DNA of 64,000 nt from an uncultured Bacteroidota bacterium (GTDB taxonomy: Bacteria; Bacteroidota; Bacteroidia; Bacteroidales; F082): positions 1 to 64,000 of the forward strand of contig CAITDJ010000046.1 of assembly GCA_903891085.1 (NCBI GenBank). Reading direction: 5' to 3'. How positions within the stretch are numbered: position 1 is the first letter of the stretch; each line of letters begins with the position of its first letter. The translations under genes and the position numbers were made by a program. Shown here one piece after another: positions 2,098 to 54,471 of the stretch. The notes under the pieces were generated by a model. That model worked only from the letters and a program-made list of their open reading frames with translations, searched no databases and had not been told where the DNA came from.

Positions 2098-2574
2098 ACA
2101 AATCGCACACTACTGCAAGAAAAATGAAATATATTAGAGACTGTCTAAAATTCTGAATTTAATTCGAAAACTGTTAGTTCTTTTGAATATCGAACAAGAA
2201 TTACTCACTACGTTCGTGAGATCGCTACGCTTAGTTAACGATTTTAGATTTATGAAGTATCCAAATCTACAGGGTTTATACCCGCTTCGTAAATCGTAAA
2301 TCCTTGTTCATTGTTCTTAAATCTTTCATTGGCTAAATTTAGTCAGTTACTTAGTCTGGAAATATCATCTTCCAGGTAATTGGTTTTGGTCATTTTGCCT
2401 TTCAAAAAAACGAAAAAACAAAACAAATTGTATCACTCCATTTGATCAAGTCCATTCCTTTTTTGCCAATCTGGATGACGAAAAATGATAATAATGATCT
2501 ATCTTTGTTGTCAAATCCTCGGTCATTTTCAGCTTTGGTGGATGTCCCTGATTAAATAAAACATGAACAACATA

Positions 2575-5628: not shown

Positions 5629-5677
5629 CTAACTACTAACTACTAACTACCAACCACCACTAACTACCAGCACCAAA
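5629..5677 (+). repeat. Heptanucleotide tract (CTAACTA word)
   Basis: Three CTAACTA units (5629-5649), then CCAACCA and more diverged units, lying between the DUF2339-like gene and the polysaccharide export genes. One of several intergenic 7-nt-period tracts in the window, each with its own word. Confidence 0.6.
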
Positions 5678-6574: not shown

Positions 6575-9055
6575 GTGGAAAATTTGCAACCCTATCAACA
6601 GGAAGAAAGCATCGACCTGAAAGCACTCTTTTTTAAATTCGCCCGTTTCTGGTATTTGTTTTCCATATCGATCTTCATCGTGCTGCTCATAGCATTTATG
6701 TTTAACAAATACACCAAATCGGTGTATGAAGTGAAGGCTTCTGTACTGGTTAAAAACGACAAAAAAAGTGGCGGCGGCGGCCTGGATGCAACCGCCCTGT
6801 TGGGAGGCATCGGTCTGAATGCGCAGCAAAACCTTCAGAATGAAATTGGCGTGCTCATGTCCTATTCGTTGAGTATGCGCGTGGTGAAAGAGATGAATGC
6901 AGAGGTAAGCTATTTCAACGAAGAAAGCTTTATAAAAAATGAAATGTACCGCACCGCACCTTTTGAGGTAGAAGTCGATTTCAACGTGCCACAGGCAGTT
7001 TCATTGCCCTACAGCCTCAACATCATCGACAGCCAGCAATTCAGCCTCGATGCCGAAGGTGATAACATCAGTAAATACAATTATAAAACCGCCGGCATGA
7101 TCGAAGGCGCTAAAATTGAAAAACTACGGTGGGAAGGCTCCTTCCGCTTTGGTGAATGGATCGACAATGGTTACAACCGGTTCCGGATTGTATTGAATGA
7201 AAAATTTGATCCTGAAATCCACCTGAAAAGCAAAATGCATTTTGTGTTAAACGACTATGAATCGACACTTAAAGTACTTCGTGGATTTAAAATTGAACCC
7301 ATCAACCGTGAAGCTTCTATTGTAAATATAACACTCCGGGGACCGATCAAGGAAAAATCAGCCGATTTTCTGAACCGGCTTATTGACACCTATCTGCAGA
7401 GCGGACTTGAAAAGAAAAATATGATTGCCGAAAACACCATCGAATTTATCGACTCTCAATTAATTGATATTCAGGACTCACTGAGCAGGGCCGAAATTGA
7501 CCTGCAGGATTTTCAAACAAGCAACGACCTGATGGATCTTGATATGCAATCGCAACAGGTGTATGAGTATATGAAAGACCTTGACAACCAGAAAGCGGAA
7601 TTGGAAGTAAAATCAAAATACTACCGCAGTCTGAAAAAATATCTGGTCGACAACCTGGAGCATCCCGAACAGTTGATTGCCCCAAGCGCCATGGGCATCG
7701 AAGACCCGCTCCTGAACCGGTTGGTGGAAGAATTGGTCAATCTATCAGGTAAAAAAACGGAACAATTACTCTCATCTACCGATAAACATCCGCTGGTTGT
7801 CAGCATCGATTCGCAAATCAGTAATACAAAAAAAGCCCTTATCGAGAACATCAGCAACATCATCAACAATTCTGATGTTGCCATACGCGACCTGAATGGC
7901 AGAATCGTGGTCATGGGTAAAGAGCTGAACAAACTGCCCAGCACGCAGCGTTTACTCATCGGCTATAAACGTAAATTTGAGCTCAGCAATACAATTTATA
8001 ACTTCCTGATGCAGAAACGGGCCGAAGCGCAGATCACCAAGGCAAGCAATATGCCCGACAATGAGGTAATTGACCCTGCTGAGGCTTCATTGAGTGAAAT
8101 GGTCTTTCCGAAAAAGAGTCTTAACTACACCATTGCCCTGTTGTTGGGTATTTTAATCCCGCTGGCCTATATCTTTGGCCGCGACTACCTGAACGATAAA
8201 ATCGTTGATCGTAAAGACATCGAAAAAGCAACCAGGCTGCCCATTGTCGGGCAAATCATGCACAACAACAAAGATACACAGCTGGTGGTGGCCGAATCAC
8301 CCAAATCGTCTATCTCCGAATCATTCAGGTCGGTGCGAACCAACATCGAGTTTCTGGTTCAGGGCAAAGAGAAGTGCGTGATCATGGTAACGGCTGATAT
8401 GGTAAGTGCCGGAAAAACCTTTGTTTCTATTAACCTGGCCAGTATTTATGCCATGTATGGAAAAAAGACAGTCCTGCTTGGCTTCGACTTACGTAAACCC
8501 AAAATCTATCAGGATTTCGGAGCCTCTAACACAACTGGTTTGAGTACCTATCTTAAAAACGAGCACACCCTCGACCAAATCATTCAGCCTTCAGGTAAAG
8601 TTCCTAACCTCGACCTGATCATGGCAGGTAAGATTCCGCCTAATCCGGCTGAATTGATCGCCTCTGCCAAATGTACAGAACTGTTCGATGAACTTCGAAA
8701 ACGTTACGACTACATCATCATCGATACGCCTCCTATCGGCCTGGTAACGGACGCCTTCCTGCTTATGAAACATACTGATGTGAATCTCTTTATTGTGCGT
8801 CAGAATTATACGCATAAAAAAATCTTCGAATCCATCATCAAGGATATTGAAGACCGGAATATTCCAATGAGCATTCTTGTAAACGACATCCGCATGGGTG
8901 GTGGTTATGGCTATGGCTACGGTTATGGTTATGGTTATGGCTACGGGTATGGTTATGGGTATGGTTATGGGTATGGTTATGGGTATGGTTATTATACCGA
9001 TGAGAAGGAAGAAAAGAAACCGGGGTACATGAAAAGAATGTTGAATAAAGTGTGA
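6575..9055 (+). CDS. Wzc/GumC-like tyrosine autokinase, polysaccharide co-polymerase, with Tyr-Gly tail
   Basis: An 826-residue inner-membrane chain-length regulator fused to a BY-kinase. The start is GTG 6575. Order: N-terminal Wzz domain with a membrane helix (about residues 24-45), a long periplasmic coiled-coil region, a second helix (about 515-535), then the cytoplasmic kinase. Walker A ends in SAGKT with Lys614 but lacks the usual PGEGK. Walker A' is LLGFDLRKP, Walker B IIIDTPP. The C-terminus carries fifteen alternating Tyr-Gly steps plus one Tyr (8906-8995) before an acidic/basic end. In this family the terminal tyrosine cluster is autophosphorylated and cycles oligomer assembly. The gene sits 12 nt after the Wza-like gene. 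Confidence 0.9.
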   Translation: MENLQPYQQEESIDLKALFFKFARFWYLFSISIFIVLLIAFMFNKYTKSVYEVKASVLVKNDKKSGGGGLDATALLGGIGLNAQQNLQNEIGVLMSYSLSMRVVKEMNAEVSYFNEESFIKNEMYRTAPFEVEVDFNVPQAVSLPYSLNIIDSQQFSLDAEGDNISKYNYKTAGMIEGAKIEKLRWEGSFRFGEWIDNGYNRFRIVLNEKFDPEIHLKSKMHFVLNDYESTLKVLRGFKIEPINREASIVNITLRGPIKEKSADFLNRLIDTYLQSGLEKKNMIAENTIEFIDSQLIDIQDSLSRAEIDLQDFQTSNDLMDLDMQSQQVYEYMKDLDNQKAELEVKSKYYRSLKKYLVDNLEHPEQLIAPSAMGIEDPLLNRLVEELVNLSGKKTEQLLSSTDKHPLVVSIDSQISNTKKALIENISNIINNSDVAIRDLNGRIVVMGKELNKLPSTQRLLIGYKRKFELSNTIYNFLMQKRAEAQITKASNMPDNEVIDPAEASLSEMVFPKKSLNYTIALLLGILIPLAYIFGRDYLNDKIVDRKDIEKATRLPIVGQIMHNNKDTQLVVAESPKSSISESFRSVRTNIEFLVQGKEKCVIMVTADMVSAGKTFVSINLASIYAMYGKKTVLLGFDLRKPKIYQDFGASNTTGLSTYLKNEHTLDQIIQPSGKVPNLDLIMAGKIPPNPAELIASAKCTELFDELRKRYDYIIIDTPPIGLVTDAFLLMKHTDVNLFIVRQNYTHKKIFESIIKDIEDRNIPMSILVNDIRMGGGYGYGYGYGYGYGYGYGYGYGYGYGYGYGYYTDEKEEKKPGYMKRMLNKV
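8906..8995 (+). repeat. In-frame Tyr-Gly coding tandem repeat
   Basis: A 6-nt period (tat/tac plus ggn) encoding alternating Tyr and Gly, 16 Tyr in all. Four exact copies of the 12-nt word GGGTATGGTTAT lie at 8945-8992. Because the unit is a multiple of three, slippage would change the number of tyrosines without a frameshift. Confidence 0.95.
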
Positions 9056-9090: not shown

Positions 9091-9202
9091 GTAGCTGGTA
9101 GCTGGTAGCTGGTAGCTGGTGGCTGGTAGCTAGTAGCTAGTAGCTGGTAGCTGGTGACTAGTAACAAGCAGCCAGTAACTAGTAACTAGTAACCAGCAAC
9201 AA
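9091..9202 (+). repeat. Heptanucleotide tract (GTAGCTG word)
   Basis: Sixteen phased 7-nt units, beginning with four GTAGCTG then drifting to GTAGCTA, GTAACTA and GCAACAA. It fills the gap between the kinase gene and the UpxY-like gene. No gene is present. Confidence 0.85.
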
Positions 9203-9232
9203 ACAAACCCGTCTCAGAATAATAACAAATAA

Positions 9233-9786: not shown

Positions 9787-9890
9787 TTAAGTAATAAGAA
9801 GCAATTAATGTCGTCATTGAATTTTTGTAAATTTCACAATGGTAGATATTTAAATAATTGTCAACTGTCCATTATCAATTGTTCATTACT
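9787..9890 (+). repeat. Dispersed intergenic repeat, copy 2, ending in a heptad tract
   Basis: Starts ttaagtaataagaagcaatt, nearly identical to the start of 15721-15852. It ends in phased 7-nt words AATTGTC AACTGTC CATTATC AATTGTT CATTACT (9856-9890) directly abutting the promoter box at 9891. Confidence 0.65.
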
Positions 9891-9923: not shown

Positions 9924-10913
9924 ATGAATCTTTTCAAAGATATTCCGGTATTGGTAACCGGTGGTGCCGGTTTCATCGGTTCAAACCTGATTGAACGGCT
10001 ACTGTCAGAAGGAGCCCTCGTAAGTTGCCTCGACAATTTCGCTACCGGTCACCGGTATAATATCGAATCCTTCATGCAACATCCTGAATTCAGGCTTATC
10101 GAAGGAGATATCAGGGATGCGGCTACATGCAATATAGCCTGTTTGAATCAGACCTACGTTTTTCATCAGGCTGCCCTTGGATCGGTGCCTCGTTCCATCA
10201 ACGACCCTGCAACCACAAATGCTGTTAATATTGGTGGTTCACTCAATATGCTCGTTGCAGCGCGTGATGCAGGTGTAAAAAGGTTTATATATGCTGCCAG
10301 CTCAAGCACCTATGGCGATTCAGAAAGCCTGCCTAAGTTGGAAGACAACATCGGCCGACCGCTTTCACCCTATGCCATCACCAAATATGTGAACGAATTG
10401 TATGCTGATGTTTTCGCGCGAACTTACGGTACCGAGTCAATTGGACTGCGCTATTTTAATGTGTTCGGACGTCGTCAGGATCCAAATGGTGCCTACGCAG
10501 CCGTTATCCCTAAATGGATGAATAGTTTCATCAAACATGAACCCATTCTCATCAACGGTGATGGAGAATATAGTCGCGACTTCACTTATATCGACAATGT
10601 GATTCAGGCCAACCTGCTGGCTGCGCTTACTGCATCGGATGTAGCGGTGAATCAGGTATATAATGTTGCCTATGGCGATCGTACTACCCTCAACCAATTG
10701 GCGCATTGGATCCGTGAGATACTTGCAACCTATGATGCCGACATCGCAAAGGTGGAGATACAACATGGTCCCTACCGAAAAGGAGATATTCCGCATTCAT
10801 TGGCTTCTATCGCAAAAGCACAACAATTACTCGGCTATCAGCCTGAATTTGACCTCAAAAAGGGTCTGACAGAGGCCTGTAAATGGTATTGGAGCGGATT
10901 GAAGTTAAAATAG
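9924..10913 (+). CDS. UDP-N-acetylglucosamine 4-epimerase-like NAD-dependent SDR
   Basis: A 329-residue extended short-chain dehydrogenase. The Rossmann glycine motif is [10 protein letters not shown] near residue 15. The catalytic Ser/Tyr/Lys are in [10 protein letters not shown] (about 123-132) and [12 protein letters not shown] (Tyr and Lys about 151-155), and the C-terminal substrate region contains [19 protein letters not shown]. That last block is typical of the WbpP/TviC/Gne branch, which interconverts UDP-GlcNAc and UDP-GalNAc (or their uronic acids). It probably supplies an activated sugar for surface polysaccharide, consistent with the export genes upstream. Exact substrate is not determined from sequence. 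Confidence 0.85.
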
Positions 10914-10989
10914 TTGCTGGTGACTGGTTGCTGGTTGCTGGCTACTAGAGACTAGTGACCAGAAACTAGTGACTAGCTATGAGCTATAT
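10913..10989 (+). repeat. Heptanucleotide tract (GTTGCTG / GTGACTA words)
   Basis: Eleven phased 7-nt units beginning at the final base of the epimerase stop codon: GTTGCTG GTGACTG GTTGCTG GTTGCTG, then GCTACTA GAGACTA GTGACCA and so on. It resembles the 9091-9202 tract in pattern (G-N-N-R-C-T-R). Confidence 0.8.
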
Positions 10990-11030
10990 GCTGAAAGCAT
11001 TATTTATTCTCCTCACATTGTAAATTTGCA

Positions 11031-12005: not shown

Positions 12006-12032
12006 TCGCATATTTCCACATCACTTTTTACT

Positions 12033-12614
12033 TTACACTTTTTTTCTGTTTTCAAGAAAACACTTACGGCACAAGGGTTCATAACTTTCCGTTTCACCCA
12101 GCATGACTAACTTATCTCCGGCAATCTTGCGATGTGAATAATGGGCCAGACTTCCGCATTCCATGCAAATGGCATGTACCTTCGTGACATATTCGGCAAC
12201 CGCCATCAACTTCGGGATAGGGCCAAAAGGATTACCCTGAAAATCCATATCCAGGCCGGCCACAATCACACGGCAGCCTGCATCAGCCAACTGATTACAC
12301 ACCGCCCCAAGCTCATCATCAAAAAACTGGGCTTCATCAATCCCGATTACATCCACCTGCGTAGCATAAAACATGATCTCCGAGGCACTTTGCACCGGAA
12401 TAGAATGAATTGAATTGGCATCGTGTGACACAACATCCGCTTCGCTATAACGGGTATCGATATGCGGTTTGAATATCTCTACACGCTGTTTGGCAATGCG
12501 GGCACGGTTCAACCTGCGTATCAATTCTTCGGTCTTACCCGAGAACATCGATCCGCAAACAACCTCAATCCATCCCGTGCGTTTATTGCTGTTTGAATCT
12601 TTTTCGAGAAACAT
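12033..12614 (-). CDS. tdk: Thymidine kinase
   Basis: About 193 residues from ATG 12614. Type II thymidine kinase, phosphorylating thymidine with ATP in nucleotide salvage. Visible motifs: P-loop [11 protein letters not shown] near residue 22, the catalytic-base region GIDEAQFF, and the zinc-binding cysteines in CMECG and CRKC. The length matches the family (about 190-200). An upstream in-frame start at 12710 would pass through the promoter box at 12659-12667 and is rejected. The gene is convergent with the coiled-coil protein gene and divergent from the operon starting at 12702. Confidence 0.95.
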
Positions 12615-15720: not shown

Positions 15721-15852
15721 TTAAGTAATGAGAAACAATTTGCTGCCTTTGAGATTTTGTAAATTACACTAAAACTGATAGTTAAATGATTTTCAATTAA
15801 CTCCGTGTTGCAGCCGGGCAGGAATTGTCCATTGTCCATTGTCAATCTTCAA
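15721..15852 (+). repeat. Dispersed intergenic repeat, copy 3, with heptad tract and GC-rich insert
   Basis: Begins ttaagtaatgagaaacaatt, like copy 2 at 9787. Near its end it reads AATTAAC, then a 21-nt GC-rich segment (15802-15822, containing TTGCAGCCGGGC), then AATTGTC CATTGTC CATTGTC AATCTTC. The insert is exactly three 7-nt periods long. The tract runs into the stop codon of the convergent gene at 15853. Confidence 0.65.
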
Positions 15853-17445
15853 TTACTTAGTCACCACTATTCTTACTGTTTTGCTGTGTTTTTCAATATT
15901 CAGTTGAAGAATGTAAACGCCTTCAGCCAGAAGGGTGCCTGCCGGAAGAATTTCAGCCAACCGGAATTCAATATTATGGCCAGCCACAACACCCATATCT
16001 TTTTTGATAACTGACCTGCCTGTTGCATCAAACAAACAGATGCTCAGCTTGCCGGACTGAGGCAATTCGATACGCACAACTGAAGATGAATTAATGGGGT
16101 TGGGTGAAACAACTGCATTGATTTCATGCTGCGCGCTGCCGGCTATTCCAACGGGGCCATCATATTCATAAGCACCTATATCGATCCGCCCGTATAGTAT
16201 GCGTAGATTGAGGTTTAAATCGTAATCGGGCAACAACAAGCCTGTTGTATCAGCAGTGCCTGAGTTTATACATGGACTTTCCTGTGTTAATTTGAAACTT
16301 CCGGCAGCTGGATCAGCAAACAAAGGATCTCCTTCGATGCAATTTTCATACAAACCATGAAAAGTACTGCCCCCAAAAGTGTCGCTCCCATATTGGATGT
16401 CGCAATTGAAGAAACCCGGTTCTGAGTAAACATCCCATATCCATACCTGAGAGCCCAGCGTATCGTAGGTTTGATTGCCATAAAGTATGCTGTTGTAAAG
16501 TTTCGTATTGGAAGTTTCGTTGCAATAAAAACCTCCTCCCATGGCAGAAAAATTGTTAACAATGGTGAGATTTGTCATTTGCGGGGAAGCGGCCACGCAG
16601 GCAATACCACCGCCAAAGAATTTCGATTCGTTGTTTATTACCAGCAGGTTAGCAATAGTCCGGTTGGGCTCACTCCGCAGGAAACCAACCGCGCCACCCA
16701 GTGCACTGTAGTTATCGTCGAACACGCAATTGACAATTTCCGGATTCGAATATTCGAATGATACACCGCCCCCAATACCCGTTGACGTGTTGCGGCAGAA
16801 TTCAATCTCATGAAGAATGGGGTTCGAACTCACAAATGAAAGTCCGCCACCGTATCCATAAATCATCCCATCATTTCCCGAATAATTATCTGTAAAGAGG
16901 CAGTTCTTCACACTGATATGTGCCTTGGAAGCATACACAGCCCCTCCCCAATAAAAAGAATAATTGTGCGATAGTCGGGAGTTGGTGATGGCTACCTTAC
17001 TGAAACGGAGAAGTCGTATAGCACCACCGTAACAGTTGACTGAATCTCCGACAGCCTTGCCATAGGTGAGACAACAATAATCAAAAACAGAAGAGTCGTT
17101 TTCCAGCGGGGTATCTTCAAAACGCAAGCCGTTCCATCCTCCCAGATTGCTGTGAATATCTCCAAATCCTACGGTATCTGCGACAGTAAAAAAAATACTG
17201 TCCGATTCAGCGCCGATGGCTCTCAACGATCCTTGCACATGCATGGAAAAATGCCCCTGAAAAATTACTTTTGTTCCGGCTTCAATGTGTAATTCCATTC
17301 CGTCAGGAATGACGATATCACAATTTACAAAAACGGTATCGTAACTCCACACACCGGTTTGCTCACCACAGGCTGTGTAATTGTTTTGGGCGAATGTGCC
17401 CATGCATATTAGGGAGACGATGACAAAGAGGAATATTTTATTCAT
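15853..17445 (-). CDS. Secreted right-handed parallel beta-helix protein with T9SS sorting domain
   Basis: A 530-residue protein with a signal peptide (about 1-19, ending TFAQ). The centre (about 50-420) shows repeated short blocks typical of a right-handed beta-helix (for example NSRLSHNYSFYWGGAVYAS and later NCVFDDNYSALGGAVGFL). This resembles polymorphic outer-membrane or pectate-lyase-like repeats. The C-terminus (about 445-530: VVSPNPINSSS, LFDATGRSV, GVYILQL, VRIVVTK) matches the type A sorting domain recognised by the type IX secretion system. It is likely exported to the cell surface or outside. No catalytic residues can be assigned. It lies alone between rsmI (convergent) and polA. 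Confidence 0.85.
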   Translation of the reverse strand: MNKIFLFVIVSLICMGTFAQNNYTACGEQTGVWSYDTVFVNCDIVIPDGMELHIEAGTKVIFQGHFSMHVQGSLRAIGAESDSIFFTVADTVGFGDIHSNLGGWNGLRFEDTPLENDSSVFDYCCLTYGKAVGDSVNCYGGAIRLLRFSKVAITNSRLSHNYSFYWGGAVYASKAHISVKNCLFTDNYSGNDGMIYGYGGGLSFVSSNPILHEIEFCRNTSTGIGGGVSFEYSNPEIVNCVFDDNYSALGGAVGFLRSEPNRTIANLLVINNESKFFGGGIACVAASPQMTNLTIVNNFSAMGGGFYCNETSNTKLYNSILYGNQTYDTLGSQVWIWDVYSEPGFFNCDIQYGSDTFGGSTFHGLYENCIEGDPLFADPAAGSFKLTQESPCINSGTADTTGLLLPDYDLNLNLRILYGRIDIGAYEYDGPVGIAGSAQHEINAVVSPNPINSSSVVRIELPQSGKLSICLFDATGRSVIKKDMGVVAGHNIEFRLAEILPAGTLLAEGVYILQLNIEKHSKTVRIVVTK

Positions 17446-27500: not shown

Positions 27501-27613
27501 TTTTAACTTTATACTTTTAACTTTTATACTTTAGCCTTTATACTTTATACTTTTCCCGTCTTGCAGCCGGGCCGGCACTTTAAACTTTAGCCTTTTTACT
27601 TTAAACTTTCCAC
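27501..27613 (+). repeat. Heptanucleotide tract (TTTNNNC word) with GC-rich insert
   Basis: Phased units TTTTAAC TTTATAC TTTTAAC (one 8-nt unit) TTTAGCC TTTATAC TTTATAC TTTTCCC, then a 21-nt GC-rich segment (27558-27578, containing TTGCAGCCGGGC), then TTTAAAC TTTAGCC TTTTTAC TTTAAAC TTTCCAC. The insert equals three periods. It fills the gap between the two permease genes, so it would be transcribed. Confidence 0.8.
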
Positions 27614-27615
27614 TT

Positions 27616-33691: not shown

Positions 33692-33761
33692 GGTAAAATT
33701 GTGAATTCCTTAACAGGCGAATGAGTAATGTTGATGGGTTGATGGGTTGATAGGTTTTCTC

Positions 33762-44210: not shown

Positions 44211-44227
44211 TCCGTGATTCGTGAATA

Positions 44228-44257
44228 GTGATTCTTTAATAGTAGTTAAGGAATCAC
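44228..44257. terminator. Hairpin between convergent pheS and pyrophosphatase genes
   Basis: GTGATTCTTTAA (44228-44239) pairs with TTAAGGAATCAC (44246-44257) with one G-T wobble. There is no long T-run, so a role as bidirectional terminator is only likely. Just before it are three 7-nt units (GTGATTC GTGAATA GTGATTC, 44214-44234). Confidence 0.5.
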
Positions 44258-52064: not shown

Positions 52065-53579
<1,515 letters not shown>

Positions 53580-53679: not shown

Positions 53680-53805
53680 CAGTTCGCAGTCTTCAGTTCG
53701 CAGTCCTCAGTCTTCAGTTCGCAGTCTTCAGTTCGCAGTCTTCAGTCTTCAGTTCGCAGTCTTCAGTCTTCAGTTCGCAGTCCTCAGTCCTCAGTCCTCA
53801 GTCTA
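53680..53805 (+). repeat. Heptanucleotide tract (CAGTNNN word, 18 units)
   Basis: Eighteen perfectly phased 7-nt units, each beginning CAGT and ending TCG, CTT or CCT (the last CTA). It is the longest and cleanest such tract in the window and lies between atpD and lspA. Open frames through it only translate the repeat. Confidence 0.95.
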
Positions 53806-53853
53806 CTTGTCCAACTGCCGACTGCCGACTTATTTTTTTATGGTAATTTATAA

Positions 53854-54471
53854 TCACATTCCTTTCAGGAATTTTCTCTCGAAAAGCAACAGCCAAAGTA
53901 CGCCACTGGTAATCGCTGTATCAGCGATATTGAATACCGGGCGAAAGAAAATGAAATAGCCATCCAATCCAAACAGATAGCTGGGAATCCACCTTGGGGC
54001 AGTTGCCTGATCGATGACCAACAGCGGAAAATACAACATATCAACCACTTTGCCATGCAAAAAACTGGCATAGCCACCGGCTTCGGGCATGAAAGTGGCC
54101 ACCGTGTGGTAACTGCTGTTACTGAATATCAGTCCATAAAAGGCACTGTCGAGAATATTTCCAAGGGCACCGGCCAACACCAGCGAAATGCCGAATACCG
54201 GTCCAAATGCCGTTTTTTTTCGGGTCAGAATTATCAGATAAACAACCATGGCGATGGATGCCAGGATACGAAAAACACTCAGTGCCAACTTACCCCATTC
54301 ACCGGCAAACTGCATACCAAATGCCATTCCGTTGTTTTCGGTAAAATGAATAATGAACCAGCTTCCGGCCATGGCGATTTCTTCGCCGATGGTCATATGC
54401 GTTTTGATATAGAATTTTAATGCCTGATCGAGCAATAAAACAATGAAGACGATGATGATAGGACGTTTCAA
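53854..54471 (-). CDS. lspA: Lipoprotein signal peptidase
   Basis: A 205-residue aspartic membrane protease that removes signal peptides from prolipoproteins after diacylglyceryl transfer. It has four membrane helices; the catalytic Asp pair lies in GNILDSAFYGLIF and FNIADTAITSG. The ENNGMAFGM segment matches the conserved N-x-G-A/M-F region. It is longer than E. coli LspA (164) because of a loop around residues 120-165 (SYHTVATFMPEAGGYASFLHG), as usual in Bacteroidetes. It follows the DksA-like gene, separated by a terminator-like hairpin. Confidence 0.94.
   Translation of the reverse strand: MKRPIIIVFIVLLLDQALKFYIKTHMTIGEEIAMAGSWFIIHFTENNGMAFGMQFAGEWGKLALSVFRILASIAMVVYLIILTRKKTAFGPVFGISLVLAGALGNILDSAFYGLIFSNSSYHTVATFMPEAGGYASFLHGKVVDMLYFPLLVIDQATAPRWIPSYLFGLDGYFIFFRPVFNIADTAITSGVLWLLLFERKFLKGM

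Follow-up and report, generated by a model that had tools for sequence, protein, structure and literature searches.

The gap between atpD (F1-ATPase beta subunit, 52065-53576) and lspA (signal peptidase II, 53854-54471), two reverse-strand genes identified by Pfam, harbours a tandem array of 18 CAGTNNN units (53680-53803, forward strand) set at an exact spacing of 7 nt, with NNN being TCG, CTT, CCT and, last, CTA. It belongs to the window, the whole 64-kb stretch of DNA analysed here, with which contig 46 of a 4.0-Mb, 155-contig draft genome begins. Sequence character and promoter-like motifs suggest that this genome belongs to the Bacteroidota. An earlier sequence-only reading had claimed eighteen phased units at this site, and both unit count and spacing bear this out. 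TRF reports the array at periods of 14, 21 and 35 nt, the last a higher-order period, and a permutation test of unit order falls just short of significance (p 0.05-0.07 at lags 3 and 5). Ten bases past the array begins a short opposite arm, AACTGCCGACTGCCGACT / ACTGCCGACTGCCGACT (53813-53830, reverse strand), made of CAGTCGG units on the other strand; it is real, above chance and absent from the list of tracts given by the earlier reading. This arrangement of array and opposite arm recurs at locus L112 of a sister species (G002) and at L165. The lspA-atpD gap itself carries CAGTNNN in its own genome (G000), GTNRCTG in the congeners G002 and G003, and in a further congener, G001, a remnant-like stretch only; in other genera of the family no tract was seen in this gap. 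An Rfam search of the window found no known RNA family.

The window was scanned for tandem repeats of periods 4-30, with dinucleotide shuffles as controls and TRF as a second caller, and its intergenic DNA yielded eight tracts of period 7 and two of period 14, compared with no period-7 tract in 20 shuffles. Two forward-strand arrays of family F1, GTAGCTG grading into GTAACYA at 9091-9206 and GTTGCTG/GTGACTA at 10913-10992, form strong hairpins (z -4.9 and -6.0, respectively) and are missing from the corresponding gaps of G002 and G001, the second of them beginning at the upstream gene's stop codon. An F1-related CTAACTA array (5629-5659, forward strand) faces a gap without a tract in G002. On the reverse strand, an F4 array of AAAGTAT/AAAGGCT units (27501-27615) is called by the scan as 27501-27553 and 27577-27615, being split by a GC-rich block of 28 nt across which the 7-nt phase is unbroken; within it lies a genus-restricted GC-rich 21-mer, CCGGCCCGGCTGCAAGACGGG (27555-27575, reverse strand), and the whole tract is missing in G003, where the gap measures 31 nt. 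An F3 array, CATTGTC/AATTGTC (15824-15853, forward strand), adjoins another copy of this 21-mer at 15802-15822. The tracts that had been listed at 5629, 9091, 10913, 15823 and 27501 are thus real and above chance by both TRF and the period scan, as is a TCGTAAA tract of period 7 (2287-2325, forward strand) that had escaped notice. Others in that list fared less well as 7-nt tracts. Those given as 9856-9890 and 44214-44234 are weak and score at period 14 only, the former being an F3-like tract of AATTGTC type (9857-9888, forward strand) absent in congeners, and the latter a tract of GTGATTCGTGAATA (44214-44243, forward strand, found by TRF and the period scan) that overlaps an inverted repeat of ordinary type, situated between convergent genes and with arms 93% complementary. 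Three T-rich units at 12023-12043 were called by neither TRF nor the scan. A tract of GTTGATGG (33730-33756, forward strand) has period 8 and belongs to a second, 8-nt class; similar tracts occupy the corresponding gap of G002 and G001.

Genome-wide counts, which rest on a 639-kb sample of the same genome drawn partly from contigs known for CAGT arrays but at a distance from those arrays, reveal 34 intergenic period-7 tracts, followed by 14 of period 8, while no other period exceeds 6; shuffled sequence yields about 1.3 tracts of period 7, and no period in it exceeds 2. The proposed enrichment of period 7 in intergenic DNA is therefore strong, and the shuffles rule out chance or composition as the origin of the tracts. 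Coding sequence of the sample holds only 3 tracts of period 7. Samples of the three sister species, all in the same genus, contain 19, 7 and 5 such tracts; elsewhere in the family, samples from four further genera gave 6, 1, 0 and 0. Isolated two-copy duplications of 7 nt show a mild excess in G000 (10, where 4.7 are expected), so that de novo slippage in 7-nt steps is not clearly visible outside arrays, and a general 7-nt bias of new duplications was set aside as an explanation. Several tracts in the smaller peak at period 8 carry the word GGTTGATR/TATCAACC.

Consensus words of the 62 tracts collected from the four congeneric species were compared across all rotations and both strands. Identical words were found in 39 pairs (mean 3.0, maximum 8 for shuffled words) and matches at 6/7 or better in 170 (mean 50, maximum 68), and single linkage grouped the tracts into 8 clusters, five of which take in 58 tracts, as against 13-27 clusters in shuffles. 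The main families are GTNRCYR (F1), AATTGAC/AAATGCA (F3 and F5), AAAGTTT/AAAGTAT (F4), and AAGTCGG and GAAGACT (F2, which includes the focal CAGTCTT). A small set of families thus turns up again at site after site, and in sister species too, which refutes the proposal that words are unrelated between sites. The accompanying proposal, that simple slippage of one ancestral repeat does not suffice, survives in part: eight clusters rule out a single ancestral word, but slippage together with copying would explain much of the pattern. Self-complementarity is likewise higher in tract words than after shuffling (4.16 vs 3.81), a level reached by none of the 500 shuffles.

The arrays have a marked position relative to genes. 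Twelve of the 62 gap tracts lie between convergent genes, where 7.3 are expected by length, and four between divergent genes, where 13.9 are expected. Between genes on the same strand, 38 of 46 tracts lie closer to the stop codon before them than to the start codon after them (p = 5e-6), with a median distance from that stop of 3 nt; gene calls here are ORF-based, and their bias, if any, is towards a shorter distance to the downstream start.

Internal order and interspecies comparison reveal how the arrays change. Roughly half of the long arrays have neighbouring units (lag 1) that are more alike than in permuted order, and in several others every second unit is alike, amounting to 14-nt higher-order repeats; local block duplication thus occurs in part of the arrays, and some, the focal one included, show no significant unit-order structure by the permutation test. 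One 247-nt array elsewhere in the genome (L066:9926-10172, G000:C7) runs through three words (GGTTRCT, GGTCTTC/AGTCTTC and CCACTTC) in unbroken 7-nt phase. Orthologous gaps were available for 23 tract loci, and in 47 species comparisons, which overlap where one gap holds two tracts, the tract was missing in 26 and a period-7 tract, mostly of the same family, was present in 21; as a baseline, some 9% of all gaps carry a tract (62 tracts in 677 gaps). Together with the differing words of the lspA-atpD gap, this pattern indicates that some sites are inherited, that array length evolves rapidly and that one word can give way to another.

Copies of the GC-rich 21-mer CCTGCCCGGCTGCAAGACGGG, at up to 3 mismatches, number 13 in the own genome, 32 in G001, 5 in G002 and 1 in G003, and at the same threshold none was found in two other genera. 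At three loci in two species it lies inside AAAGNNN (F4) arrays, with equal heptad phase on both sides. Within or beside heptad arrays, with the 7-nt phase kept, it is seen at 27555-27575, 15802-15822, L318, L113 and L076, and at G000:C154:58162-58245 the 21-mer is itself tandem at exactly 21 nt. The phase-kept 21-mer is best read as a sign of composite arrays being copied between sites, although a 7-nt ruler would give the same result.

The phenomenon extends well beyond the genus. CAGT is repeated at 7-nt spacing in 70 of 198 genomes of the phylum, compared with 14 at 6 nt, where many matches resemble coding hexamers, and 11 at 8 nt. This search required CAGT by design, and CAGT as a uniquely special core was rejected, since the reversed control TGACNNN also appears in many of the 198 genomes. 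Certain arrays of other genera keep CAGT constant while the next three bases vary from unit to unit (CAGTAGA CAGTAGG CAGTGAG CAGTTAG and similar), and L198 consists of GTNNACA units in which the core is likewise constant while other bases vary. Genomes rich in arrays and genomes empty of them sometimes fall within one genus. Identical CAGTCCY arrays are found in cyanobacteria, in many other phyla and in the own genome; with CAGTCCY excluded, 45 cyanobacterial loci still hold 104 tracts of period 7, no other period exceeding 12, and loci of other phyla hold 27, no other period exceeding 4, the genomes in both sets having been selected for one heptad array and so not forming a random sample. One genome of the survey, G143 (L181, L182), is very rich in 7-nt and 8-nt arrays (CAGT matches: 88 + 113) and has no detectable Y-family polymerase. 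The idea that the arrays require a Y-family DNA polymerase was discarded on the basis of G143, G093 and G126, which have no IMS match at 99% completeness.

Heptamer repeats in bacteria are already known (PMC4679880, PMC4692102). As cited in these two papers, Mrazek 2007 found the heptanucleotide to be the commonest long repeat unit in many bacterial genomes, in intergenic DNA, and suggested that 7 nt is the stretch contacting DNA polymerase. Going by the same descriptions, the present arrays share period and intergenic location with those repeats and are degenerate, grouped in families and in some cases equipped with inverted arms. Polymerase contact leaves unexplained the absence of arrays from many genomes; a universal polymerase property fits the period shared across phyla but not the patchiness (70/198 genomes). 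The cyanobacterial heptamers described in both papers, the STRRs, resemble the present arrays in their 7-nt tandem unit, mostly intergenic location, several dispersed words per genome and dominance of period 7 in the cyanobacterial loci examined; they differ in that word families are only partly the same, and the location behind stop codons was measured in the present genus only. The suggested likeness to cyanobacterial STRRs therefore holds, but the added qualification of site-specific words does not, since families recur. Heptamer repeats have also been reported in Bacteroidetes (PMC4679880), where close relatives may have no repeats in the corresponding gap, as here. These TAACTGA repeats of Beggiatoaceae, cyanobacteria and some Bacteroidetes are likewise intergenic 7-nt tandems, and read on the other strand as CAGTTAT, thus sharing the CAGT core; unlike the arrays downstream of stop codons described here, they lie mostly just upstream of start codons, and the 38 tract words seen in the genus sample do not include TAACTGA. 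Finally, GGGAATC of Xanthomonas and GGGGAYT of Nostoc (PMC4692102) form intergenic 7-nt arrays variable in length and sequence between close relatives, with inverted pairs in Xanthomonas, but they are G-rich and quadruplex-forming, which the present words mostly are not; among the main consensus words of the genus no unit contains a G-run of three or more, except in one AAGTGGG tract.

Taken together, a 7-nt tandem unit, intergenic location, families dispersed at many loci and a presence and length that vary between species point to STRR-type heptameric satellite DNA with local turnover in 7-nt steps and words spread by copying, a reading to which we assign a probability of about 0.72. Slipped-strand replication or unequal exchange, proceeding in steps of 7 nt or of a multiple of 7, would locally lengthen, shorten and homogenise the arrays, as suggested by the order of units, the higher-order periods and the differing array lengths of the species. 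Pieces of an array at one site may be copied into a gap elsewhere and so carry its word family there, in keeping with the identical words at many loci and the one shared GC-rich block. The arrays would then persist mainly in the stretch just behind stop codons, away from promoters, where the observed position may reflect tolerance. Several observations speak against this reading: the excess of isolated 7-nt duplications is mild, unit order in some arrays, the focal one among them, is without significant structure, a universal polymerase property would not predict the patchiness, plain slippage does not predict that CAGT stays constant while the neighbouring three bases vary, as found by a search that required CAGT, and sequence comparison identified neither shared flanks around the arrays nor an apparent vehicle for copying.

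The constant cores would be accounted for if a DNA- or RNA-binding protein read 4-5 nt (CAGT, GTNAC) at 7-nt spacing and selection kept core and spacing while the other bases drifted. The variation around constant cores in several genomes and, within one and the same set of genomes, the far greater frequency of CAGT at 7-nt spacing compared with 6 or 8 nt are consistent with such binding arrays, which we nonetheless consider unlikely: tracts are often missing from the corresponding gap in sister species or carry a different word there, they lie behind genes and not in front, one genome contains several unrelated cores, and the pattern search selected for CAGT in the first place. It is also improbable that a sequence-independent 7-nt ruler, a property of some lineage-specific replication, repair or binding factor, imposes the period and so holds unrelated words, inverted arms and even the GC-rich 28-nt block in phase.

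Location right after stop codons and the excess between convergent genes would suit transcription terminators, with inverted heptad arms forming hairpins behind the gene. Some arrays, mainly of GTNRCYR, have an inverted second half and very stable folds (z -3 to -6), and the lspA tract of G003 has an A-run, GGGTG/CACCC and a T-run around it. However, the mean folding z over the 62 arrays is -1.04, no better than the -1.20 of tract-free 3' regions, the order of the arms is not fixed relative to the gene, and many words (AAAGTTT, GTGAGTA) fold poorly, so that a terminator was rejected as the general explanation and is quite unlikely to be what the arrays are for. Because mean folding does not exceed that of controls, termination is no more than a by-product in some of the arrays, in which inverted arms could terminate transcription by accident. 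A MITE- or REP-like mobile element with internal heptad arrays could account for the same words and composites at unrelated loci and for the GC-rich 21-mer embedded in several arrays, but a comparison of 342 intergenic pieces after array masking revealed no shared flank or common element, and no conserved ends were seen, which makes this origin highly improbable. At their borders, where target-site duplications would lie, the orthologous gaps are strongly diverged. The top recurring items in that comparison, by which a larger element was dismissed, were a CRISPR-like array, the 147/149-nt repeats of the window and a short ACTTTAGCTCACT repeat.

To the known heptamer repeats the present analysis adds a quantified period excess, word families, position at stop codons, turnover among congeners, unit-order evidence and a phase-keeping composite. 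Since period 7 dominates the intergenic tandem repeats of this genus and, with different words, repeat-bearing loci of several phyla, the period itself needs a cause, and the patchy distribution makes that cause searchable, a genome-wide association of array load with repair or replication genes being feasible. Arrays at gene ends that are capable of forming hairpins may also affect transcript ends and draft assemblies.

Repeats of other kinds were encountered as well. Between genes at 3-766 and 1608-2095, units of 147, 99 and 149 nt that contain GGGGCAGGGGGTGAGCGTTGG are repeated in tandem, and the CRISPR-like array noted above (L075:1-1680, G000:C17) has the repeat AAATGTGCTCAGTATTTCAAAGATACAATCTAAAAGCAATTCACAAC. 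A coding hexamer repeat at 8897-8992 makes up the Gly-Tyr-rich tail of a Wzc-like tyrosine kinase, whose gene adjoins polysaccharide export and NusG-like genes.
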